Below, in pieces: positions 44,096 to 51,311 of a stretch of DNA of 64,000 bases. Positions within the stretch are counted from its first letter, which is position 1. Each line of letters opens with the position of its first letter. The notes beneath the pieces are model-generated. The model was not told the origin of the DNA and ran no database searches. It saw only the letters and a list, made by a program, of their open reading frames with translations. The translations under genes were made by a program, and so were the position numbers. The DNA is from Mycolicibacterium litorale. Lineage in GTDB: Bacteria > Actinomycetota > Actinomycetes > Mycobacteriales > Mycobacteriaceae. The stretch covers positions 3,286,001 to 3,350,000 of the forward strand of contig NZ_AP023287.1 of the NCBI RefSeq assembly GCF_014218295.1, given 5' to 3'.

Positions 44096-44362
44096 CTACG
44101 CGGGCGACATCTTCAGCGTTTTTGATTTTGCGTCAGCCACCGCACCCAAGACGGCTTTGAACAGGTCCCTAGGATCCGATACGACGGCCTGCGCCCCCCG
44201 CCGTTCGCATTCTGCTATGAAGTCTTCTGACTTAGGGGTCGAGTAAATGAAAATTGGAACATCAGAATTGAACTCACGCACGGCATCGATGAGAACCAAG
44301 CCCTCGTGCTCGCCTTCGGCACGCCCCATATCGGAGATGATTGCTACGAATTTGTGCCTGTG
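44096..44362 (-). pseudogene. 3' fragment of an interrupted receiver-domain gene
   Basis: The C-terminal part of the gene whose 5' part is at 45740-46389. It encodes KFVAIISDMGRAEGEHEG, where the Asp of ISDM is the equivalent of the receiver phosphoacceptor, then VPIFIYSTPKSEDF with the conserved Ser/Thr, and a final helix ending KTLKMSPA before TAG at 44096. It lacks its own start because the IS256-family element lies directly upstream. Bases 44355-44362 are the duplicated target. Confidence 0.85.
44355..44362. repeat. Left target-site duplication of the IS256-family element
   Basis: TGCCTGTG, identical to 45740-45747. Eight bases is the usual duplication length for the IS256 family. Confidence 0.9.
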
Positions 44363-45739
44363 GGGACTGTCTGAATAACGGTGGATCTGGTTCTGGTCTG
44401 ACACGCCGGGCGTGAGCTTGGCGGGAAGGACTGATGATGTCCGAAACACTGGAATCCGTGGCGATCGACGTTGATCACAAGCAGCTCGCCGAGCAACTGC
44501 TCGCGCAAGCCAAGGAACACGGCGTGGAACTGGTAGGCCCAAACGGCCTGCTCAATCAGCTCACCAAGAATGTCCTCGAAACCGCCCTAGATGCCGAAAT
44601 GACCGAGCACCTGGGCTACGACAAGCACGACCCGTCCGGGCGCGGCAGTGGCAACTCCCGCAACGGCACCCGATCCAAGACGGTGTTCACCGAGATCGGC
44701 CAGGTGGAGCTCGACGTACCGCGCGACACCAACAGCACCTTCGACCCGGTGATCGTGAAGAAGCGGCAACGTCGGCTGACCGGCATCGATGAGATCGTGT
44801 TGTCGCTGACCGCCAAAGGCCTCACCACCGGGGAGATCGCCGCCCACTTCGCCGATGTCTACGGCGCCACGGTCTCCAAGGACACCATCTCCCGAATCAC
44901 CGACAAGGTCATTGAGGAAATGACTGAATGGTGTAACCGGCCGTTGGAGTCGGTGTATCCGGTGGTGTTCATCGATGCGATCTACGTCAAAGTCCGCGAC
45001 GGTCAGGTCGCCAACCGGCCCATCTACGTCGCGATCGGCGTGACCTGCGCCGGCGAGCGTGACATCCTCGGACTGTGGGCCGGCGACGGCGGCGAGGGCG
45101 CGAAGTTCTGGCTGTCGGTGCTCACTGAGATCAAGAATCGCGGCAGCGCCGATGTGTGCATCGTGGTCTGCGACGGTCTCAAGGGACTGCCCGATGCGAT
45201 CAACACCGTATGGTCCCGCGCGGTCGTCCAGACGTGTGTGATCCATCTGTTGCGCAACACCTTTCGATACGCGTCTCGGAAGTATTGGGATCAGATCGCC
45301 AAGGACATCCGCCCGGTCTACACCGCAGCTACCGAGGCCGCGGCCAAGGAACGCTTCGCCGAGTTCACCGCCAAATGGGGAGCTGCGTATCCGGCGATTA
45401 CCCAGTTGTGGGAGAACGCCTGGAGTGAGTTCGTGCCGTTCTTGGATTACGACGTCGAGATCCGCCGCGTCATCTGTTCGACGAACGCGGTGGAATCCTT
45501 GAATGCCCGCTACCGGCGGGCGATTCGGGCCCGTGGGCACTTCCCGACCGAGCAGGCCGCGATGAAGTGCCTCTACTTGGTGACCCGATCCCTGGACCCC
45601 ACCGGCCGCGGTAAGGCACGATGGGCAATGAGGTGGAAGCCCGCGCTGAATGCGTTCGCAATCACCTTCAACGGCCGGATCACTCCGACTGGCACCTAAC
45701 CAATGCCAGGATCAGATCCACCGTTTACCTGACAGCCCC
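44363..45739 (+). mobile_element. IS256-family insertion sequence, 1377 bp
   Basis: Bounded by imperfect terminal inverted repeats: GGGACTGTCTGAATAACGG at the left and, read inward from the right, GGGGCTGTCAGGTAAACGG, both continuing into GGTGGATCTG (27 of 34 positions match). It is flanked by an exact 8-bp duplication. One transposase gene fills it. Insertion splits a receiver-domain gene. The intact duplication and open transposase indicate a recent, probably active element. Confidence 0.93.
44434..45699 (+). CDS. IS256-family transposase
   Basis: 421 residues, a DDE transposase of the mutator/IS256 type. Family features: LGYDKHDPSGRGSGNSRNG near the N-terminus, the first catalytic Asp in VVFIDAIYVKVRDG, the second in VVCDGLKGLPDAI, and the terminal Glu in STNAVESLNARYRRAIR. 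The frame is intact and of full length. It starts with ATG 44434 (or 44437), close after GGAAGGA. It reads opposite to the gene it interrupts. Confidence 0.95.
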   Translation: MMSETLESVAIDVDHKQLAEQLLAQAKEHGVELVGPNGLLNQLTKNVLETALDAEMTEHLGYDKHDPSGRGSGNSRNGTRSKTVFTEIGQVELDVPRDTNSTFDPVIVKKRQRRLTGIDEIVLSLTAKGLTTGEIAAHFADVYGATVSKDTISRITDKVIEEMTEWCNRPLESVYPVVFIDAIYVKVRDGQVANRPIYVAIGVTCAGERDILGLWAGDGGEGAKFWLSVLTEIKNRGSADVCIVVCDGLKGLPDAINTVWSRAVVQTCVIHLLRNTFRYASRKYWDQIAKDIRPVYTAATEAAAKERFAEFTAKWGAAYPAITQLWENAWSEFVPFLDYDVEIRRVICSTNAVESLNARYRRAIRARGHFPTEQAAMKCLYLVTRSLDPTGRGKARWAMRWKPALNAFAITFNGRITPTGT

Positions 45740-45747
45740 TGCCTGTG
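45740..45747. repeat. Right target-site duplication of the IS256-family element
   Basis: TGCCTGTG, the partner of 44355-44362. Confidence 0.9.
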
Positions 45748-46389
45748 CAGCAGCTCGAGCGCTTCCTGCGTATTGGTAACCCTGGAGAAACGAATGCCCA
45801 TGGCTTCGAATGCTCGTCGCTCGTGAGCGTTGGCCTGCGGACGGTCGTCAACCCAGAGGATGTGGTCATGCCAATCTGTGTCCTCCTTCATTACCGAAGG
45901 AAGCGCCGCTTGTACCGCCACGTCAACGATCTGATCGATGTCACTGCCTTGGAGTTCCTGCCCACCCGCCGAGGACTTCAATGTGGCAATCGACAAAGAA
46001 GCTGCGGTTTTCGCCGCTTTTTCCGCGTCCAACTTACTGCGTGCCTCTAGGAATTTCAGATAGTCCTCCAGAGTGAGGAACTCGGTTGGAGCGTAGACCT
46101 TGTCGTTGTGGGCAGTGACCAGCCAGGCAAATACACCCAAGATGATCACGGGAAAGGCCACGATGAAGATCACCAGCAGCAATTTCTCGGCGTCGCCCAA
46201 CGAAGAGGCGTAAAGAGCTGGTGCGAGCGCTGCTATGCCGTACACCAAGACTACGAACAGAGCGATGATCCCAAGCGGGCTACGTGACAGTTTCGTTGCC
46301 GTGTCGGTGAACGACTTGATGTCGCCTTCCATGTAACCCCCGTCCAGCGCAGCCGGTTTGGTCAGCATTGGGACGTCAGTATCACCCAT
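45740..46389 (-). pseudogene. 5' fragment of an interrupted membrane-anchored receiver-domain gene
   Basis: Starts ATG 46389 (MGDTDVPMLTK). A short cytoplasmic lead is followed by two transmembrane helices (about 38-60 and 69-91; LGIIALFVVLVYGIAALAP and LLLVIFIVAFPVIILGVFAW), a helical linker with Ala/Glu/Lys (about 105-165), and the start of a receiver-like fold, HDHILWVDDRPQANAHERRA, whose two Asp form the acidic pocket. Translation runs into the IS and stops at 45712. Joining 46389-45740 to 44354-44096 gives 909 nt, 303 codons, with no break in frame. No histidine kinase is near. Confidence 0.85.
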
Positions 46390-46405
46390 GGCGAGTCCCC
46401 GATAC

Positions 46406-46428
46406 TGAGTCCACCCGGTTCTAGAGTC
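46406..46428. repeat. Left terminal inverted repeat of the IS3-family element
   Basis: TGAGTCCACCCGGTTCTAGA followed by GTC. Pairs with 51028-51050. Confidence 0.8.
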
Positions 46429-46447
46429 GGGTTGGTTTGATCCGTTC

Positions 46448-46672
46448 TCAGTTGATGCTGCAGGCCACCGGGGTGTGGGTGCACCTGCAGGCGGCAGCGT
46501 ACTCGACCGGGGTGCGGTAGCCCAGGGCTGAGTGGCGGTGTCGGTGATTGTGTTCGTGCTTGAAGTCGCCGATGACCACGCGGGCCTCGAAGAGGGTGTT
46601 CCAGTAGTTGCGGTTGAGGCACTCCTTGCGCAGGCGGTTGTTGAACGATTCGATGTAGCCGTTGTCCCATGG
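46448..46672 (-). pseudogene. IS3 orfB, 3' fragment
   Basis: Reads (W)DNGYIESFNNRLRKECLNR and then HNHRHRHSALGYRTPVEYAA to a TGA at 46450-46448. This holds the last catalytic Glu (YIESF) and C-terminus of an IS3-family DDE transposase. It is the continuation of the orfB fragment at 50067-50715; the join GCP-WDNG is restored if the intervening 3397 bp are removed, with 3 bases (TGG) shared by the two junctions. Confidence 0.9.
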
Positions 46673-46685
46673 TTATCCGGCTAAT
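46673..46685. repeat. Left end repeat of the Tn554-like element
   Basis: TTATCCGGCTAAT; 12 of 13 bases match the inverted copy at 50051-50063. Confidence 0.8.
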
Positions 46686-46718
46686 CTGGGCCGAGTCGGC
46701 GGCGGGTCCGGGGGTTGT

Positions 46719-47018
46719 CTAGCTTTTCTGTTGTCGTAGGCGGCGGATTTCTTCTTCGTGGCGCCGGACGGTGGTGGCGAGGGCATCCATCGCAATGCGC
46801 AGGTGGGCGATCTCGGTTGTGAGTCCGGTCAGGGTGTGTGCTTCCTTGCCGCGGGCTCGATGCTCTTCGATGATCTGTCGTAGGTCACCGTTGCGGTAGA
46901 GGGTGGCTCGACCAAGTCCGGTGCGGGCCGCAACGTCATCGAAGGTCACCTGTCTGCCGGCGAGAATAATTACTGCGCAGGCATCTTCGACTTGCTGACG
47001 CCGTTGTTGGGGTGTCAT
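46719..47018 (-). CDS. TnpC-like accessory protein of the Tn554-like element
   Basis: 99 residues. An N-terminal helix-turn-helix like those of TetR proteins (ILAGRQVTFDDVAARTGLGR then ATLYRN) is followed by a coiled coil ending EEEIRRLRQQK. Tn554 TnpC proteins have a similar small size and influence orientation and frequency of transposition. ATG 47018 overlaps the tnpB-like stop by 4 bp. Assignment rests on position, size and the coiled coil. Confidence 0.75.
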   Translation of the reverse strand: MTPQQRRQQVEDACAVIILAGRQVTFDDVAARTGLGRATLYRNGDLRQIIEEHRARGKEAHTLTGLTTEIAHLRIAMDALATTVRRHEEEIRRLRQQKS

Positions 47019-48928
47019 CCGGTCTGTGTCTGACTGATGTGGGCGTCCAGGCGTGCGATGAGTCGACGGTGGCGTTCGGCTTCCTCGGTCCAGCCACGGG
47101 CTTCGGCGTCGCGAGCCAGCGTTTCGGTGTCAGCGCGCTGAGCGGCCAGGACGGGCAGATAGCCGGTGTCGGTGCGGAAGTTGGGACAGTGCTCGCAGAT
47201 GTTGGCGTAGGCGCACGGGCCTTGGACTTGGGCACGGATGCAGAAACCCCCGGCCAGGCGGGCCTTAATGGCTGGTGCGTCTTTCCAGTCGCCGTCGACG
47301 ATCGGCAGCGAGGTCTGGCCTTGTGGCGGATCAGTGGGCAGGGTTCCCAGATGGGCCTTCGCCGCGGTCAGCGCACGTTCGTATTCGGTGCGCACGGTCG
47401 CGTCGAAGAGACGTCCGTAGCGCAGACTCATCTCAGCCGAGACGTGCCCGAGCAGAGCCATCAGACTCTGCAGCGAGACACCAGCGTTGACCAAGGCAGT
47501 GGCGTAGGTGTGGCGCAGTTGGTGCGGGGTGATGTGCGGCAGGTTGGCGTCGGTGGTCACGCGGCCCAGCACGTCGCGGATGTGATCGACGGTCAGGCGC
47601 CGACCGTGGTGGGTGAACAAATAGTCGGTAGGGCGTGCTGTGCGTGGGTGCGGTAGCGGCCGCCCAAGCGAGCGGTGGGCCACGATCCGATCGATGAGGG
47701 CAACGGTGTCGTCGTCAAGGGGCACCATCCGTTCGGTATTGAGCTTTCCCAGTGGGATTTTCAGCCATGCGCCTTGGCCGGGGATTTCGTGGACGCTGTC
47801 GAGTTCGAGGTCGACGAGCTCACCGATACGCAATCCGGTTGCCCGTTGCAACAGCAGTGCGTCAGCCGGCAGCCGGTCTGGCCAGGCCTGCAGTGCCTGA
47901 GTCAGCCGCCGGTCCAGGTCCGGGGTGAGGTAGCGCGGTAGGGCTCGGGGAAGCTTGGGGATGTCGGAGCGGAATACCAGCCGCCGTGGTGGTGCCTCCG
48001 GCCAACCCCACTCAGCGATGTCGTTGAGAAGGCAGTGCACTGCCAAGACCCGACCGCGACGCTCTGAGGCTTGAATCGGTGCGCCCGTACGCGAATTGGT
48101 TGCCTCGGCGGTAGCGGTCAGGTAGGTCTCGATGTGGCGGCGTCGGTCCAAATTGGCCAGACTTGCCAATGTCGGATCAACCGCATACAGGTGGGCGGCG
48201 AAGTGGTTGAGCCGGGTTGCGGTGCCAGCGACCGTGCCGCGGCTATGGGTGGCGGTCAACCGATCGAGGTAGGCCACAAACGAGCCGCGCAGTGACGGAC
48301 TCGCATCCCGCATCCGCTGGGCAAAGCTTTGCCGCAGCAGGCTGGTCGCGTTGACCGGCTGGTCGGTGAACACACCGAGGTGAAACATCACCTGCCGGGC
48401 GGTGTGGGCACCGCTGCTGTAGTGGCGGCTGGGTTTATCAGCGCCGCGGCGAGCCGCACTTGCAGCTAGTAGATCATCAAAGTCGTTGTTGGTCAGGGCA
48501 TCCAGTCGTCTTCCTGTCTGAATGAGGAGCCTGCCGATGACCTGCGACGCGGATGCGCTGCGGGTGCGTTCGGTGAAGCCGAGTTCTTCGGCGGCGCCCA
48601 GGAACCGGGCAAGGTCCTGGGCAAGCAGCCCGGGCGGCAGGTGGCGCCAAAAGACGGACAGTTTGCGGCAGATCAGGTAGTCGTATCCGGGCCGCAGGTG
48701 CCCGGCCAGCATCAGGAACGTCACAAAGCAGCGGGTGGTATGCGACGCCGACAACTGTGTCTGTAGTGGTTCCCCGGCCCATTGTTGTGGATCGGGCCAG
48801 CATCGCAGGAACGTTCGTGCTGCCGACCGGAGGTTCCTACTGGTCAATCCCAGCCGGGTGCAATGCGCGTCGTAATCGGTGAGCAGGTCAGCATCAGGAG
48901 CGGGAACGTAAGCGAGCACGGGCGGCAT
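47015..48928 (-). CDS. Tyrosine recombinase, TnpB-like
   Basis: 637 residues from ATG 48928 (MPPVLAYVPAPDADLLT); the frame opens 20 codons earlier, deeper in tnpA. A large N-terminal region is followed by the phage-integrase catalytic domain: Arg in QRATGLRIGELVDLEL, HQLRHTYATALVNAG, LLGHVSAEM and Tyr in SLRYGRL. After it comes a Cys-rich tail, CIRAQVQGPCAYANICEHC, a likely zinc ribbon. It overlaps tnpA by 35 bp and tnpC by 4 bp. Confidence 0.88.
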   Translation of the reverse strand: MPPVLAYVPAPDADLLTDYDAHCTRLGLTSRNLRSAARTFLRCWPDPQQWAGEPLQTQLSASHTTRCFVTFLMLAGHLRPGYDYLICRKLSVFWRHLPPGLLAQDLARFLGAAEELGFTERTRSASASQVIGRLLIQTGRRLDALTNNDFDDLLAASAARRGADKPSRHYSSGAHTARQVMFHLGVFTDQPVNATSLLRQSFAQRMRDASPSLRGSFVAYLDRLTATHSRGTVAGTATRLNHFAAHLYAVDPTLASLANLDRRRHIETYLTATAEATNSRTGAPIQASERRGRVLAVHCLLNDIAEWGWPEAPPRRLVFRSDIPKLPRALPRYLTPDLDRRLTQALQAWPDRLPADALLLQRATGLRIGELVDLELDSVHEIPGQGAWLKIPLGKLNTERMVPLDDDTVALIDRIVAHRSLGRPLPHPRTARPTDYLFTHHGRRLTVDHIRDVLGRVTTDANLPHITPHQLRHTYATALVNAGVSLQSLMALLGHVSAEMSLRYGRLFDATVRTEYERALTAAKAHLGTLPTDPPQGQTSLPIVDGDWKDAPAIKARLAGGFCIRAQVQGPCAYANICEHCPNFRTDTGYLPVLAAQRADTETLARDAEARGWTEEAERHRRLIARLDAHISQTQTG

Positions 48929-49988
48929 CGAACTCCTCACGCAGAAACGTTGGGGCCAAATGGATGTAGGCGGCGGCGGAATCAGCATGGTCGTGGCCCA
49001 TCAGTGCTTGGATCACCGACAGATCGACCCCGGCTTCAGCCAGCGCGGTGCCGAACGAATGCCGTAACGCATGTGGATGCCCGGCGCTGACGCCGGAGCG
49101 TTCACGGTGATAGCGAAATACCGTGCGCAGTCCCGCCGCGGTCAGCGGCTGTCCGCGATGAACGCCCTTGGCGACGACGAACAACGCCTCGGCATCTGTC
49201 TCGGGTCGCTCGACCAGTAGATAAGTTTGGATCGCGCCGGCAACGTCGGTGTCGATCGGTACGGACCGTTCCTTGCTTCCCTTGCCGAGCACCCGAACCC
49301 AGCGTCGGGCGATATCCACATCGGCAACGCGCACTGATAGGACTTCAGTTGACCGCAACCCCGACATCAGCATCAAGCCCCCGATGGACCGATCGCGCCA
49401 GCTCCGGAAGCTGCCTAGCAGCGCCGCAGACTCCTGTCGGGTCAACCCGCGCGGCAGCCGCCGCTGCTCACGGACCCTCAGCTGGGAACGTGACTTCGGC
49501 TTGGCGATATGGGCCAACAGGCCGGAACGTTCTCCACGCGAACGCAATCGGGCCGAACGACCCCCACTGACCGGGTTTCGCGCGTCGGGGTCGCGCATCT
49601 CCTGGAATGCGAACAAACTGGAGATCGCCGCCAGTCTCCGATTAATCGTTGCAGGTGCATAACCTTGATTGCGGCCATCGCGGATCGAATACACGTTGCC
49701 ACCCGGTCGGCCCGGCAGCGTCGCCTCCCGACACGCAGTCAGGAACCGAAGCAGCACATCAACATTGACCTCTGCCAGGTCCACCTGCTCGTCAATCAGC
49801 CACCGCGTGAACGCCAGCAGGTCGTACGCGTAGGCCCGGCAGGTATGGACCGAGAAGTTGCGGTCAGCCAGATGTGCCAGAAAGTCGTTGACCAATCCGA
49901 ACCGCTCGGCGGCCGGCCCACGCAACTGCCACACACCGCCATCGACGGCTGCAGACAGCTCTTTCGTCATGAGATGTGCATATCGCAT
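48894..49988 (-). CDS. Tyrosine recombinase, TnpA-like
   Basis: 364 residues. N-terminal SAM-like core-binding domain (FLAHLADRNFSVHTCRAYAY) and catalytic domain with Arg in LMSGLRSTEVLSVRVADVD, HALRHSFGTALAEAG, LMGHDHADS and the nucleophilic Tyr in AAAYIHLAP. All catalytic residues are intact. The ATG at 49988 follows GGGAG; a second ATG six codons later is possible. An inverted repeat GAGATG-N9-CATCTC covers the start region and could be a binding site for the element's own proteins. Confidence 0.9.
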   Translation of the reverse strand: MRYAHLMTKELSAAVDGGVWQLRGPAAERFGLVNDFLAHLADRNFSVHTCRAYAYDLLAFTRWLIDEQVDLAEVNVDVLLRFLTACREATLPGRPGGNVYSIRDGRNQGYAPATINRRLAAISSLFAFQEMRDPDARNPVSGGRSARLRSRGERSGLLAHIAKPKSRSQLRVREQRRLPRGLTRQESAALLGSFRSWRDRSIGGLMLMSGLRSTEVLSVRVADVDIARRWVRVLGKGSKERSVPIDTDVAGAIQTYLLVERPETDAEALFVVAKGVHRGQPLTAAGLRTVFRYHRERSGVSAGHPHALRHSFGTALAEAGVDLSVIQALMGHDHADSAAAYIHLAPTFLREEFDAARARLRSRS

Positions 49989-50050
49989 CTCACTCCCGCT
50001 CGGGGCATAACCGCAGGAAAAGGGCCATTCCAGCCGTCGGACTCAGCAGC

Positions 50051-50063
50051 ATTAGCCGGTTAA
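50051..50063. repeat. Right end repeat of the Tn554-like element
   Basis: ATTAGCCGGTTAA, the inverted partner of 46673-46685. Three further bases separate it from the IS3 sequence. Confidence 0.8.
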
Positions 50064-50066
50064 GTG

Positions 50067-50715
50067 TGGGCAGCCCGGCGGGATGTAGACCATTCCGGTC
50101 TTGTTCTCGCAGAACCGTTGCAGCGCTCGGGAAACCATTTCCGGACCGTTGTCGAGGCGTAGTACTTTCGGCGGGCCGCTGGCCGCGGCGAACACCTTGG
50201 TCAGTTCCTCGACCAGATGCTCGCCGGTGATGGAACGCTCCACCAGGTTCAGCAGGGACTCGCGGGTGTGTTCGTCGATCATCGAGGCGATCTTGATGGC
50301 CTTGCCATCGATGGTGGAGTCGAACTGGAAGTCGATTGCCCACACCACCTTCGGCGCATCGGCGATGACCGGCGGCACCGAGGAAACACCGGCCCGCTTC
50401 CGAGCCGAGACGACCTTGACCTGCAGGCCCTCTTCGCGCCACAGTCGGTGGATCTTCTTCTTGTTGACCTCACGGCGCTCGTCGTAACGCAGCGCCGCCC
50501 AGGCGCGCCGGAACCCATGGCAGGGGTGTTTGGTGGCGTAGGCGCGAAGCCAGGCCCTCATTTCGTCGTCCGGATCGGTCGGGGTCTGTGACAGTGGCAG
50601 GCGGCGGTAGGTGGAGCGGGCCAGCCCAACGGCTCTGCACGCTAACCGTTCCGACATACTCAGTGTCTCCTTGAGCATGTCGACGGCGCGGCGCTTGGCA
50701 GCTGGGCTCAGAATT
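50067..50715 (-). pseudogene. IS3 orfB, 5' fragment
   Basis: IS3-family transposase with the HTH_21 segment (GFRRAWAALRYDERREVNKK) and the first two catalytic Asp in VVWAIDFQFDSTIDGKAIK and VLRLDNGPEMVS. It is cut after YIPPGCP by the Tn554-like unit; reading into the unit adds only HLTG before a stop. With the fragment at 46448-46672 the complete orfB has about 278 codons from MLKETL. Expression would depend on a -1 frameshift from orfA. Confidence 0.9.
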
Positions 50716-50989
50716 TTCCCTTGGCGACCTCCCGCAGGGCGTCTTTCTCCAGCTCGGCGTCGGCCAGCAGCCGTTTGAGGCGGGCGTTCTGCTCACGCAG
50801 CTCCTTGAGTTCCTTGGCCGCGTCGGTGTCCATGCCGCCGTAGGTACGGCGCCAGTTGTATAGCGTCGCCGGCGAGACCTGCAGCTCGGCAGCGATCTGT
50901 TCGCCGGTCTTGCCCTCGGCGGCCAGTTCATCCGCCCGGCGCAGCTTGCGCACGATGTCCTCCGCGGAATTCCGCTTCCGACCAGCCAT
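50708..50989 (-). CDS. IS3 orfA
   Basis: 93 residues from ATG 50989 (MAGRKRNSAEDIVRKL). Helix-turn-helix (TGEQIAAELQVSPATLYNWR) followed by a leucine-zipper-like coiled coil (ELREQNARLKRLLADAELEK). Near its end is the slippery sequence G-GGA-AAA (50720-50714) just before TGA, the standard IS3 signal for making the OrfAB fusion by -1 frameshifting. Confidence 0.92.
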   Translation of the reverse strand: MAGRKRNSAEDIVRKLRRADELAAEGKTGEQIAAELQVSPATLYNWRRTYGGMDTDAAKELKELREQNARLKRLLADAELEKDALREVAKGKF

Positions 50990-51027
50990 GTGTTCATCGT
51001 CCCTTCTGACCCGACATCGGGCCACAG

Positions 51028-51050
51028 GACTCTAAAACTCGTTGGACTCA
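51028..51050. repeat. Right terminal inverted repeat of the IS3-family element
   Basis: Inverted copy of the left end; read inward it begins TGAGTCCAACGAGTTTTAGA. Confidence 0.8.
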
Positions 51051-51311
51051 TTCACCGGGAACACGCCACCCAAGCAGACGGGAAATGCGCGCGATAGCGG
51101 CATCACGTGCTTTGGGGCCGAACCCTCAAGAACTCCTTCATGTGCCGAAGCCACTACCCAGCCCCGCTGCTCCACGGTCAGGAGTTCTTACAGAGAAGCG
51201 AGCATACGAGGGATGCGAAACAACGCCGCCCGCGAAGCCGAGCACGCTACGTCGTCCACCGGCGTCAACAGCTGAACGCCGAATTGAGGACGGACAGGCC
51301 TGAGTGGGAAA
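51051..51311. other. Gene-free stretch between the IS3 end and ilvE
   Basis: About 260 bp. Short open frames exist on both strands, but none has a ribosome site, a family resemblance or the codon bias of the neighbours. I see no repeat, tRNA or known regulatory motif. Confidence 0.5.

Follow-up and report, generated by a model that had tools for sequence, protein, structure and literature searches.

Here we describe an element related to Tn554 that lies within orfB, the transposase gene of an IS3-family insertion sequence (IS), in a 64,000-nucleotide stretch of the Mycolicibacterium litorale genome (NZ_AP023287.1, positions 3,286,001 to 3,350,000; the whole stretch is called the window, and positions are counted from its first letter). 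The element and its relatives point to a rule of target choice. Judging from the places they occupy, an actinobacterial clade of Tn554-related elements, built of tnpA and tnpB with the addition of tnpC in the window's branch, very probably targets highly conserved codons within genes for transposases; in most cases these codons immediately precede the catalytic glutamate of a DDE enzyme of the rve or Mutator type. The Tn554-related family itself was already known, and the specialisation on transposase active-site codons is the new part.

The window's element carries three co-directional genes, tnpA, tnpB and a tnpC-like gene, within the IS3-type orfB, and an earlier reading of this DNA from its letters alone (the sequence-only reading) held that excision of 3397 bp would restore the host frame. 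Empty copies of the IS in other genomes agree: 20 of 23 rows are uninterrupted through the site, with contiguous halves and neither loss nor duplication of bases (N-half 75-90% identical), and the other three (L155, L156, L158) fail to span it. The insertion point is seven codons ahead of the catalytic glutamate. The host frame is broken after Gly-Cys and the piece beyond the insert opens Pro-Trp-Asp-Asn-Gly-Tyr-Ile-Glu, so that a truncated transposase without the third catalytic residue is left; its frame continues a few codons into the element, to a stop at 50052. The TGG common to both junctions and the near-terminal inverted repeats had also been described correctly: on the + strand the junctions read CCATGG on one side and GTGTGG on the other (CCACAC on the coding strand), and the repeat is TTAACCGGCTAAT against TTATCCGGCTAAT. 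The element opens with CCACAC-TTAACCGGCTAAT, and its last bases, ATTAGCCGGATAA, adjoin the host's CCATGG. Because the empty sites read mostly CCGTGG and once CCATGG (L141), the CCATGG at the tnpC end is the target's and the CCACAC at the tnpA end is the element's own.

Natural empty sites were read for four host ISs, with no loss, no duplication and contiguous halves. The two halves are contiguous in 8 of 10 rows for the host of L074, four of these rows being 100/99% identical to the halves; of the remaining two, L200 is uninterrupted at the site but has its C-half match in an adjacent copy, and L197 is shifted by a single base. The host of L088 has contiguous halves in 14 of 15 rows, L213 being itself interrupted, and that of L043 in 11 of 15, where L220 and L223 each carry an element at this very point and L228 and L229 fail to span the site. 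The 6 bp adjoining the tnpC end agree with the 6 bp of the target. Those on the tnpA side are nearly constant within a clade, irrespective of target (TGCCTG in most IS3-only elements; AGCCTC in L101, TCCCTC in L122, AGCCTG in L268). Inverted arms of the TTAACCGG type close both ends of the elements read.

Seventy-six places with a readable flank were counted in the TTAACCGG-ended clade once repeats had been dropped, with both flanks readable at 50. We assigned 73 of the 76 to transposase genes, 60 of them to codons of the catalytic glutamate (the E-site): 23 in IS3, 15 in IS256, 8 in rve genes of the 'QGRGK' kind, 5 each in IS21 and IS30, and 4 in IS481. The other transposase places comprise 8 at an IS256 CxxH motif, 2 at the IS3 orfA/orfB border, 2 in IS630 and 1 in an IS4/IS1634-like gene. 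Those not assigned to transposases (three) were not recognised as radC by eye. Pfam scoring, with N-halves and C-halves taken apart, agrees with most of these assignments: it returned rve for 35 and Transposase_mut for 18 of 59 N-halves; among 52 C-halves it returned rve_3 (25), rve_2 (23), Transposase_mut (16), Mu-transpos_C_2 (6) and DDE_3 (1). The only nearly invariant column of the C-half alignment, which is without L050 (one extra base at the right junction) and L127 (two N-halves), is a Glu at residue 8; the N-half alignment is without L051 (16 amino acids). The insert measures 3148-3510 bp in 46 of the 50 places with both flanks, which leaves room for little beyond the recombinase genes. 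The view of the window's element as a Tn554-type, cargo-free and site-selective unit with multicopy insertion sequences as landing sites is sound; being a 'minimal form' does not set it apart, this size being the norm of the family.

Repeated insertion at the same codons, which the sequence-only reading had proposed as a check, was found in two genomes. One IS256 of G083 has 17 matches, of which 15 copies were read; four of these are filled, all at a single nucleotide, and the filled copies differ from the nearest empty copy by 2, 3, 5 and 3 bases and from the nearest filled copy by 7, 5, 7 and 5. In G140, where one IS3 gave 11 matches and 10 copies were read, two copies are filled, one of them sharing a single-nucleotide polymorphism with an empty copy, and the elements are 99.65-100% alike in three further IS3 hosts, making four different IS3 hosts in all. 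Given the empty sites and the single-nucleotide reuse in G083, the window insertion is not at its site by chance. TnpA proteins 99% identical to the window's occur at the homologous codon in IS21-type (L039, L040) and IS481-type (L041) genes, so that IS3 is used, as had been proposed, but is not the sole host, since IS21-, IS481- and IS30-type, other rve and IS256 genes serve as well, those of IS30 type, of the 'QGRGK' rve kind and of IS256 being occupied by deeper relatives. The recognised core that had been suggested, CCATGGG, is rejected. What stays constant in the window's clade is only the CC of the 6-bp core, together with the codon frame ahead of the catalytic Glu, and IS21-, IS481- and IS30-type sites are without CCATGGG; the sequence-only reading had itself said that copies lacking a CCATGGG-like core would speak against it, and taken literally this is the case, so the core claim fails.

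Among loci fetched after the rule had been stated, all seven new readable places lie at the predicted codons: IS256 NNPxE in L272, L273 and L274, and IS3 in L267, L268, L269 and L271 (L267 and L271 read on one side only). Of these, L272/L274, L273 and L268 are similar to composites met before (93, 88-89 and 82%). L258 and L270 fit too and are repeats of L106 (99.9% over 3.0 kb) and L121. The remainder were left out as unreadable (L260, L266), as the window's own copies (L259, L265) or as coming from genomes already seen (L261, L263); L262 and L264 are shorter loci of L267 and L268. The IS3-side arm of L271 stands about 1.75 kb before tnpA, and something may have inserted between arm and gene. 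A FastTree tree of 91 TnpA sequences, its topology taken without branch supports, has clades with distinct targets: the rve E-site in many IS types, the IS3 E-site only, the IS256 E-site, IS256 CxxH and the IS3 orfA/orfB border.

Several observations weigh against this conclusion. Some places can be aligned in pairs along the element and the IS alike (L115/L119 at 99%, L272/L274 at 93%, L268/L073 at 82%), as does L273 with L125 and L128 (88-89%); such pairs may descend from one composite, and the places are not all independent. L105 lies in a non-transposase gene and the host genes of L064 and L068 were not identified. Within the tree, L058/L065 (IS3 orfA/orfB border) and L105 branch inside clades whose targets differ from theirs, and two distant relatives (L161, L162; TnpA about 30% identical) sit in parB-like genes by eye; such outlying targets rest on few loci, and several more distant relatives were unreadable. 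At 26 of the 76 places a single flank or only short flanking sequence is available, in L103 no more than 16 bp. Five of ten extra pieces (L166, L090, L184, L189, L188) gave no Pfam hit, and among the 73, L184 and L189 are assigned by motif only and L058 by weak HTH hits. A sequence logo alone cannot separate conservation of the host from recognition by the recombinase, and no excision, circle or new insertion was observed.

These points bear on three other accounts of the pattern. In the first, a single insertion would have occurred in each IS lineage, and the composite of IS and element would then have spread and diverged. The aligned pairs just listed favour it, as does the window composite, which is present twice in its genome, identical but with different 4-bp repeats. 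Spread of composites is likely for some pairs, and the pair in the window's genome is compatible with either this or separate hits. As a sole source of copies it is ruled out: each filled IS256 copy of G083 is nearest to an empty one, the polymorphism in G140 is common to a filled and an empty copy while near-identical elements occupy four IS3 hosts, and at 80% DNA identity the 60 N-halves fall into 45 clusters and the 51 C-halves into 35. Taken generally the one-insertion account is refuted by G083 and the 99% identical TnpA in three IS types, and we regard it as unlikely to explain the pattern. Equally improbable is a second account in which the element would choose a short palindromic sequence or a mimic of its arm, CGGC for instance, tied to transposases only through base composition. 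Target arms do bear a weak likeness to the element arm (1-7 of 13 matches on either side) and the genomes are GC-rich, but short matches of this kind are to be expected throughout a GC-rich genome, and yet 73 of 76 places were assigned to transposase genes; moreover, sister clades with similar TTAACCGG arms are found at different transposase motifs, including IS256 at two sites and other positions. Arm similarity was accordingly set aside as too weak a cause of target choice. Finally, there is little chance that insertion is wide and only hits in dispensable transposase genes persist. In favour of that account, loss of IS genes is neutral and relatives of TnpA are uncommon (40 of 397 related genomes, 6 of 396 in the phylum sample). 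It would, however, lead one to expect insertions spread over the length of IS genes and between genes, whereas one nucleotide is hit in 4 of 15 read IS256 copies of G083 and homologous codons are reused across transposase families.

We therefore return to targeting of transposase active-site codons, for which the following course of events can be proposed. TnpA and TnpB would excise the element or copy it out as a circle, in which arm, 6 bp and arm together would form attP; the expected dyad, ATTAGCCGGWTAA-6 bp-TTAACCGGCTAAT, would resemble the core site of a tyrosine recombinase. This attP would pair with a degenerate attB made of active-site codons, strands would be exchanged at both edges of the 6-bp core, and the element's core would be left at the tnpA end. 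Selection for transposase function would preserve attB in unrelated IS families, and targets of this kind would be abundant, horizontally spread and harmless for the cell to lose. With its catalytic Glu cut off, the IS copy that is hit should be silenced.

On a wider view, which we hold to be somewhat favoured by the material as a whole, there has been a radiation of tyrosine-recombinase elements whose attB recognition is directed at active-site codons of other transposons, hyperparasites that ride on ISs, disarm them copy by copy and rearrange replicons through nested copies. Its targets would be the pre-Glu rve codons in at least five IS types for one clade and, for others, IS3 DN-E, IS256 NNPxE, IS256 CxxH, the IS3 orfA/orfB border, the first Asp of IS630 and the catalytic Tyr of tnpB in fellow elements. 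The strategy would lie in codons that selection can hardly change, which make unrelated transposons one large, mobile and expendable target. Such insertions may naturally curb IS activity in mycobacteria and rhodococci, and they account for broken transposases that would otherwise be taken for degraded ISs. The family also provides recombinases with 6-bp-spacer sites and clade-specific specificity that can be compared directly.

A number of individual loci deserve mention. On the linear plasmid pR1CP1 (NZ_CP009112.1), L116 and L269 lie in opposite orientation with exchanged host halves: L116 has an N-half of the L118 type (89%) and a C-half of the L114 type (97%), and L269 the reverse (88%, 97%). 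This exchange would be the expected trace of recombination between two nested copies, with an inversion of about 0.7 Mb. In L124 the element is reversed at the IS256 E-site, and both flanks of L127 are IS256 N-halves, which points to rearrangement among copies. The single clear insertion outside transposases, L105, is in a small gene (DDWTVDDLRGRAKELGI..., by eye) and its flank has only a few bases in common with the IS256 target, in the manner of a secondary site. Outside the main clades, L166 is in IS21 (by eye) and L164 in Tn3 (DDE_Tnp_Tn3, E 5.4e-24). L169 and L134/L188 have another end type, TGATATGCGGGTGATC, and are inserted by eye at SAEMxLRY codons of tnpB-like genes; since SAEMxLRY is the catalytic Tyr region, these sit in elements of their own kind (the short L188 piece is without a Pfam hit). 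No TnpC-type gene is annotated in the IS256-site relatives L125, L126 and L128.

Features of the window's element and its host insertion sequence
Feature	Position in window	Strand	Basis or remark
IS3-family insertion sequence, interrupted host	46389..51068	-	terminal inverted repeats TGGCGAG.../...CACGCCA; identical second copy
4-bp CCCA repeats flanking host IS3	46385-46388 and 51069-51072		
orfA of host IS3	50708..51025	-	HTH_Tnp_1
orfB N-terminal part (rve)	50070..50678	-	broken just before catalytic Glu
Tn554-related element, 3397 bp	46673..50069	-	junction reading, empty-copy comparison
tnpA-side 6-bp core CCACAC, element-borne	50064..50069	-	
tnpA-side arm TTAACCGGCTAAT	50051..50063	-	
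tnpA, tyrosine recombinase, 364 aa	48894..49988	-	Phage_integrase, Phage_int_SAM_1; HALRH, LMGH boxes, Tyr
tnpB, long tyrosine recombinase	47015..48928	-	637 aa by comparison with relatives
tnpC-like small protein, 99 aa	46719..47018	-	DUF6262, E 1.9e-7
tnpC-side arm ATTAGCCGGATAA	46673..46685	-	
Target core CCATGG (codons Pro-Trp), property of the host gene	46667..46672	-	
orfB C-terminal part (rve_3, rve_2)	46451..46672	-	catalytic Glu = residue 8

The extent proposed at the outset, 46406..51050, was slightly short of the IS ends at 46389 and 51068. The open reading frame of tnpB opens earlier than tabulated, at 48988 (657 aa as opened); the protein has a Phage_integrase match and GLR, HQLRH, LGH and Tyr boxes. 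The second, identical copy of IS plus element lies in the same genome at C1:1011xxx with its own 4-bp repeat, CCAG, and the sequence outside the IS differs between the two. An uninterrupted copy of this IS was not seen in its own genome in a search with orfA and the orfB N-half, which returned the two filled copies and two adjacent partial matches of 88 and 81%. At 44434-45699 of the window there is by eye an IS256-family-like transposase gene (421 aa). The gene pieces that it parts, 45712-46389 and 44096-44542, seem from their translations to be the two portions of a single receiver-like protein.

Searches for relatives of TnpA gave the 40 related genomes mentioned above (E<=1e-30), 34 loci of a species-representative collection, 51 plasmid records (E<=1e-20) and the six genomes of the phylum sample (E<=1e-40), one of which is the window's own. 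Among 8000 scored candidates, 3018 TnpA homologues reached E<=1e-10; a phage collection gave one weak phage record, and viral scans gave 0 loci and 1 locus. Most places were found by the TTAACCGG-type end pattern, and other ends are therefore under-sampled; L068 ends in TTATGTGG, and L068 and L070 were read by eye. Before the 76 places were counted we dropped repeats (L003, L063, L080, L191, L132, L131, L223), contigs ending at or near the element ends (L042, L044, L045, L046, L055, L066, L069, L078, L100, L112, L133, L136, L186, L187), fragments (L071, L072, L079) and loci of another end type (L090-L092); L213 is uncounted. The window was counted once, and L074/L077, L115/L119 and L082/L083/L084 were entered as separate places. 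Binomial tails for this tally presuppose independence of the places and were not used. Seven of the dropped loci (L042, L044, L045, L046, L100, L112, L186) are draft contigs of 3.2-3.4 kb that consist of the element and a few flanking bases, which suggests that several copies collapsed in those assemblies. Setting the host frame by the longest open frame is unreliable in GC-rich DNA and was wrong even for the window; host frames were therefore set by motif, by eye, and then checked with Pfam. IS family names were assigned by eye from characteristic motifs except where Pfam or the record annotation names them.

The use of conserved active-site codons as wide targets is shared with inteins, group I and group II introns and homing endonucleases. 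Inteins and introns splice out and spare the gene, whereas the window's element breaks it and no splicing part was seen. Transposase genes as a target class of elements such as the window's were not found in titles and abstract openings of the papers listed from the open-licence literature, outside which most subscription journals and preprints lie.

The actinobacterial Tn554-related transposons were defined by Van Houdt et al. 2012; that paper names no target in its section 10 and reports similarity to Tn554 as data not shown (PMC3414803). Like the window's element, theirs pair a typical tyrosine recombinase with one of abnormal length, often add a TnpC-like protein, and come from the same genera; pBD2 of their Table 2 carries L270, an element read here at an IS3 site. 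That section contains neither the active-site target nor the ends, the 6-bp core or the empty sites, and our results answer the point it left open, namely where these elements insert. The Tn554-like elements of Firmicutes (Tn554, Tn558, Tn6188) have 6-bp junctions and occupy one conserved position in radC despite 45-60% protein identity, which is a precedent for conserved-codon targeting (PMC3788773). Tn6188, with a TnpA of 361, a TnpB of 637 and a TnpC of 121 aa, is described as targeting the cellular gene radC and carrying a tolerance gene (PMC3788773), whereas the window's family targets several mobile-element families and has room for little cargo.

Strand-biased circularizing integrative elements (SEs; genes intA-tfp-intB-srap) are also similar in having two tyrosine recombinases, one of them large, a TnpC-like fourth protein, a 6-bp spacer between inverted motifs and few preferred sites, and one SE insertion in insJ of IS3 is on record (PMC10214605). 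The SE passages of that paper do not describe transposases as a target class. After insertion of an SE the target's 6 bp are intA-proximal, with the left 6 bp of the donor at the opposite side, whereas in the window's family the target's 6 bp are tnpC-proximal; the element's 6 bp stay at the tnpA end, and the polarity is thus opposite to the SE/Tn554 rule given there (PMC10214605). The window's element has, besides, three genes instead of four. Recombinase trios (RIT elements) likewise depend on tyrosine recombinases only, and one interrupts a Tn6049-like transposon in its transposase gene, an insertion reported for one genomic location and not as a site preference (PMC3414803); they have three recombinases, of 315-410 aa in the archetype (PMC10214605), as against two recombinases and a DUF6262 protein in the window. 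With the Tn554 family the window's element shares two adjacent tyrosine recombinases of about 360 and 630 aa (here 364 and 637) with catalytic boxes, a small co-directional third gene, insertion without target loss or duplication, a 6-bp core at the junctions, and a conserved site; the radC target is replaced by transposase genes. Its kinship is one of architecture and sizes, its target 6 bp are at the tnpC side and its tnpA-side core is nearly constant within a clade, and it is on these grounds filed as Tn554-related and not as a canonical member of Tn554.

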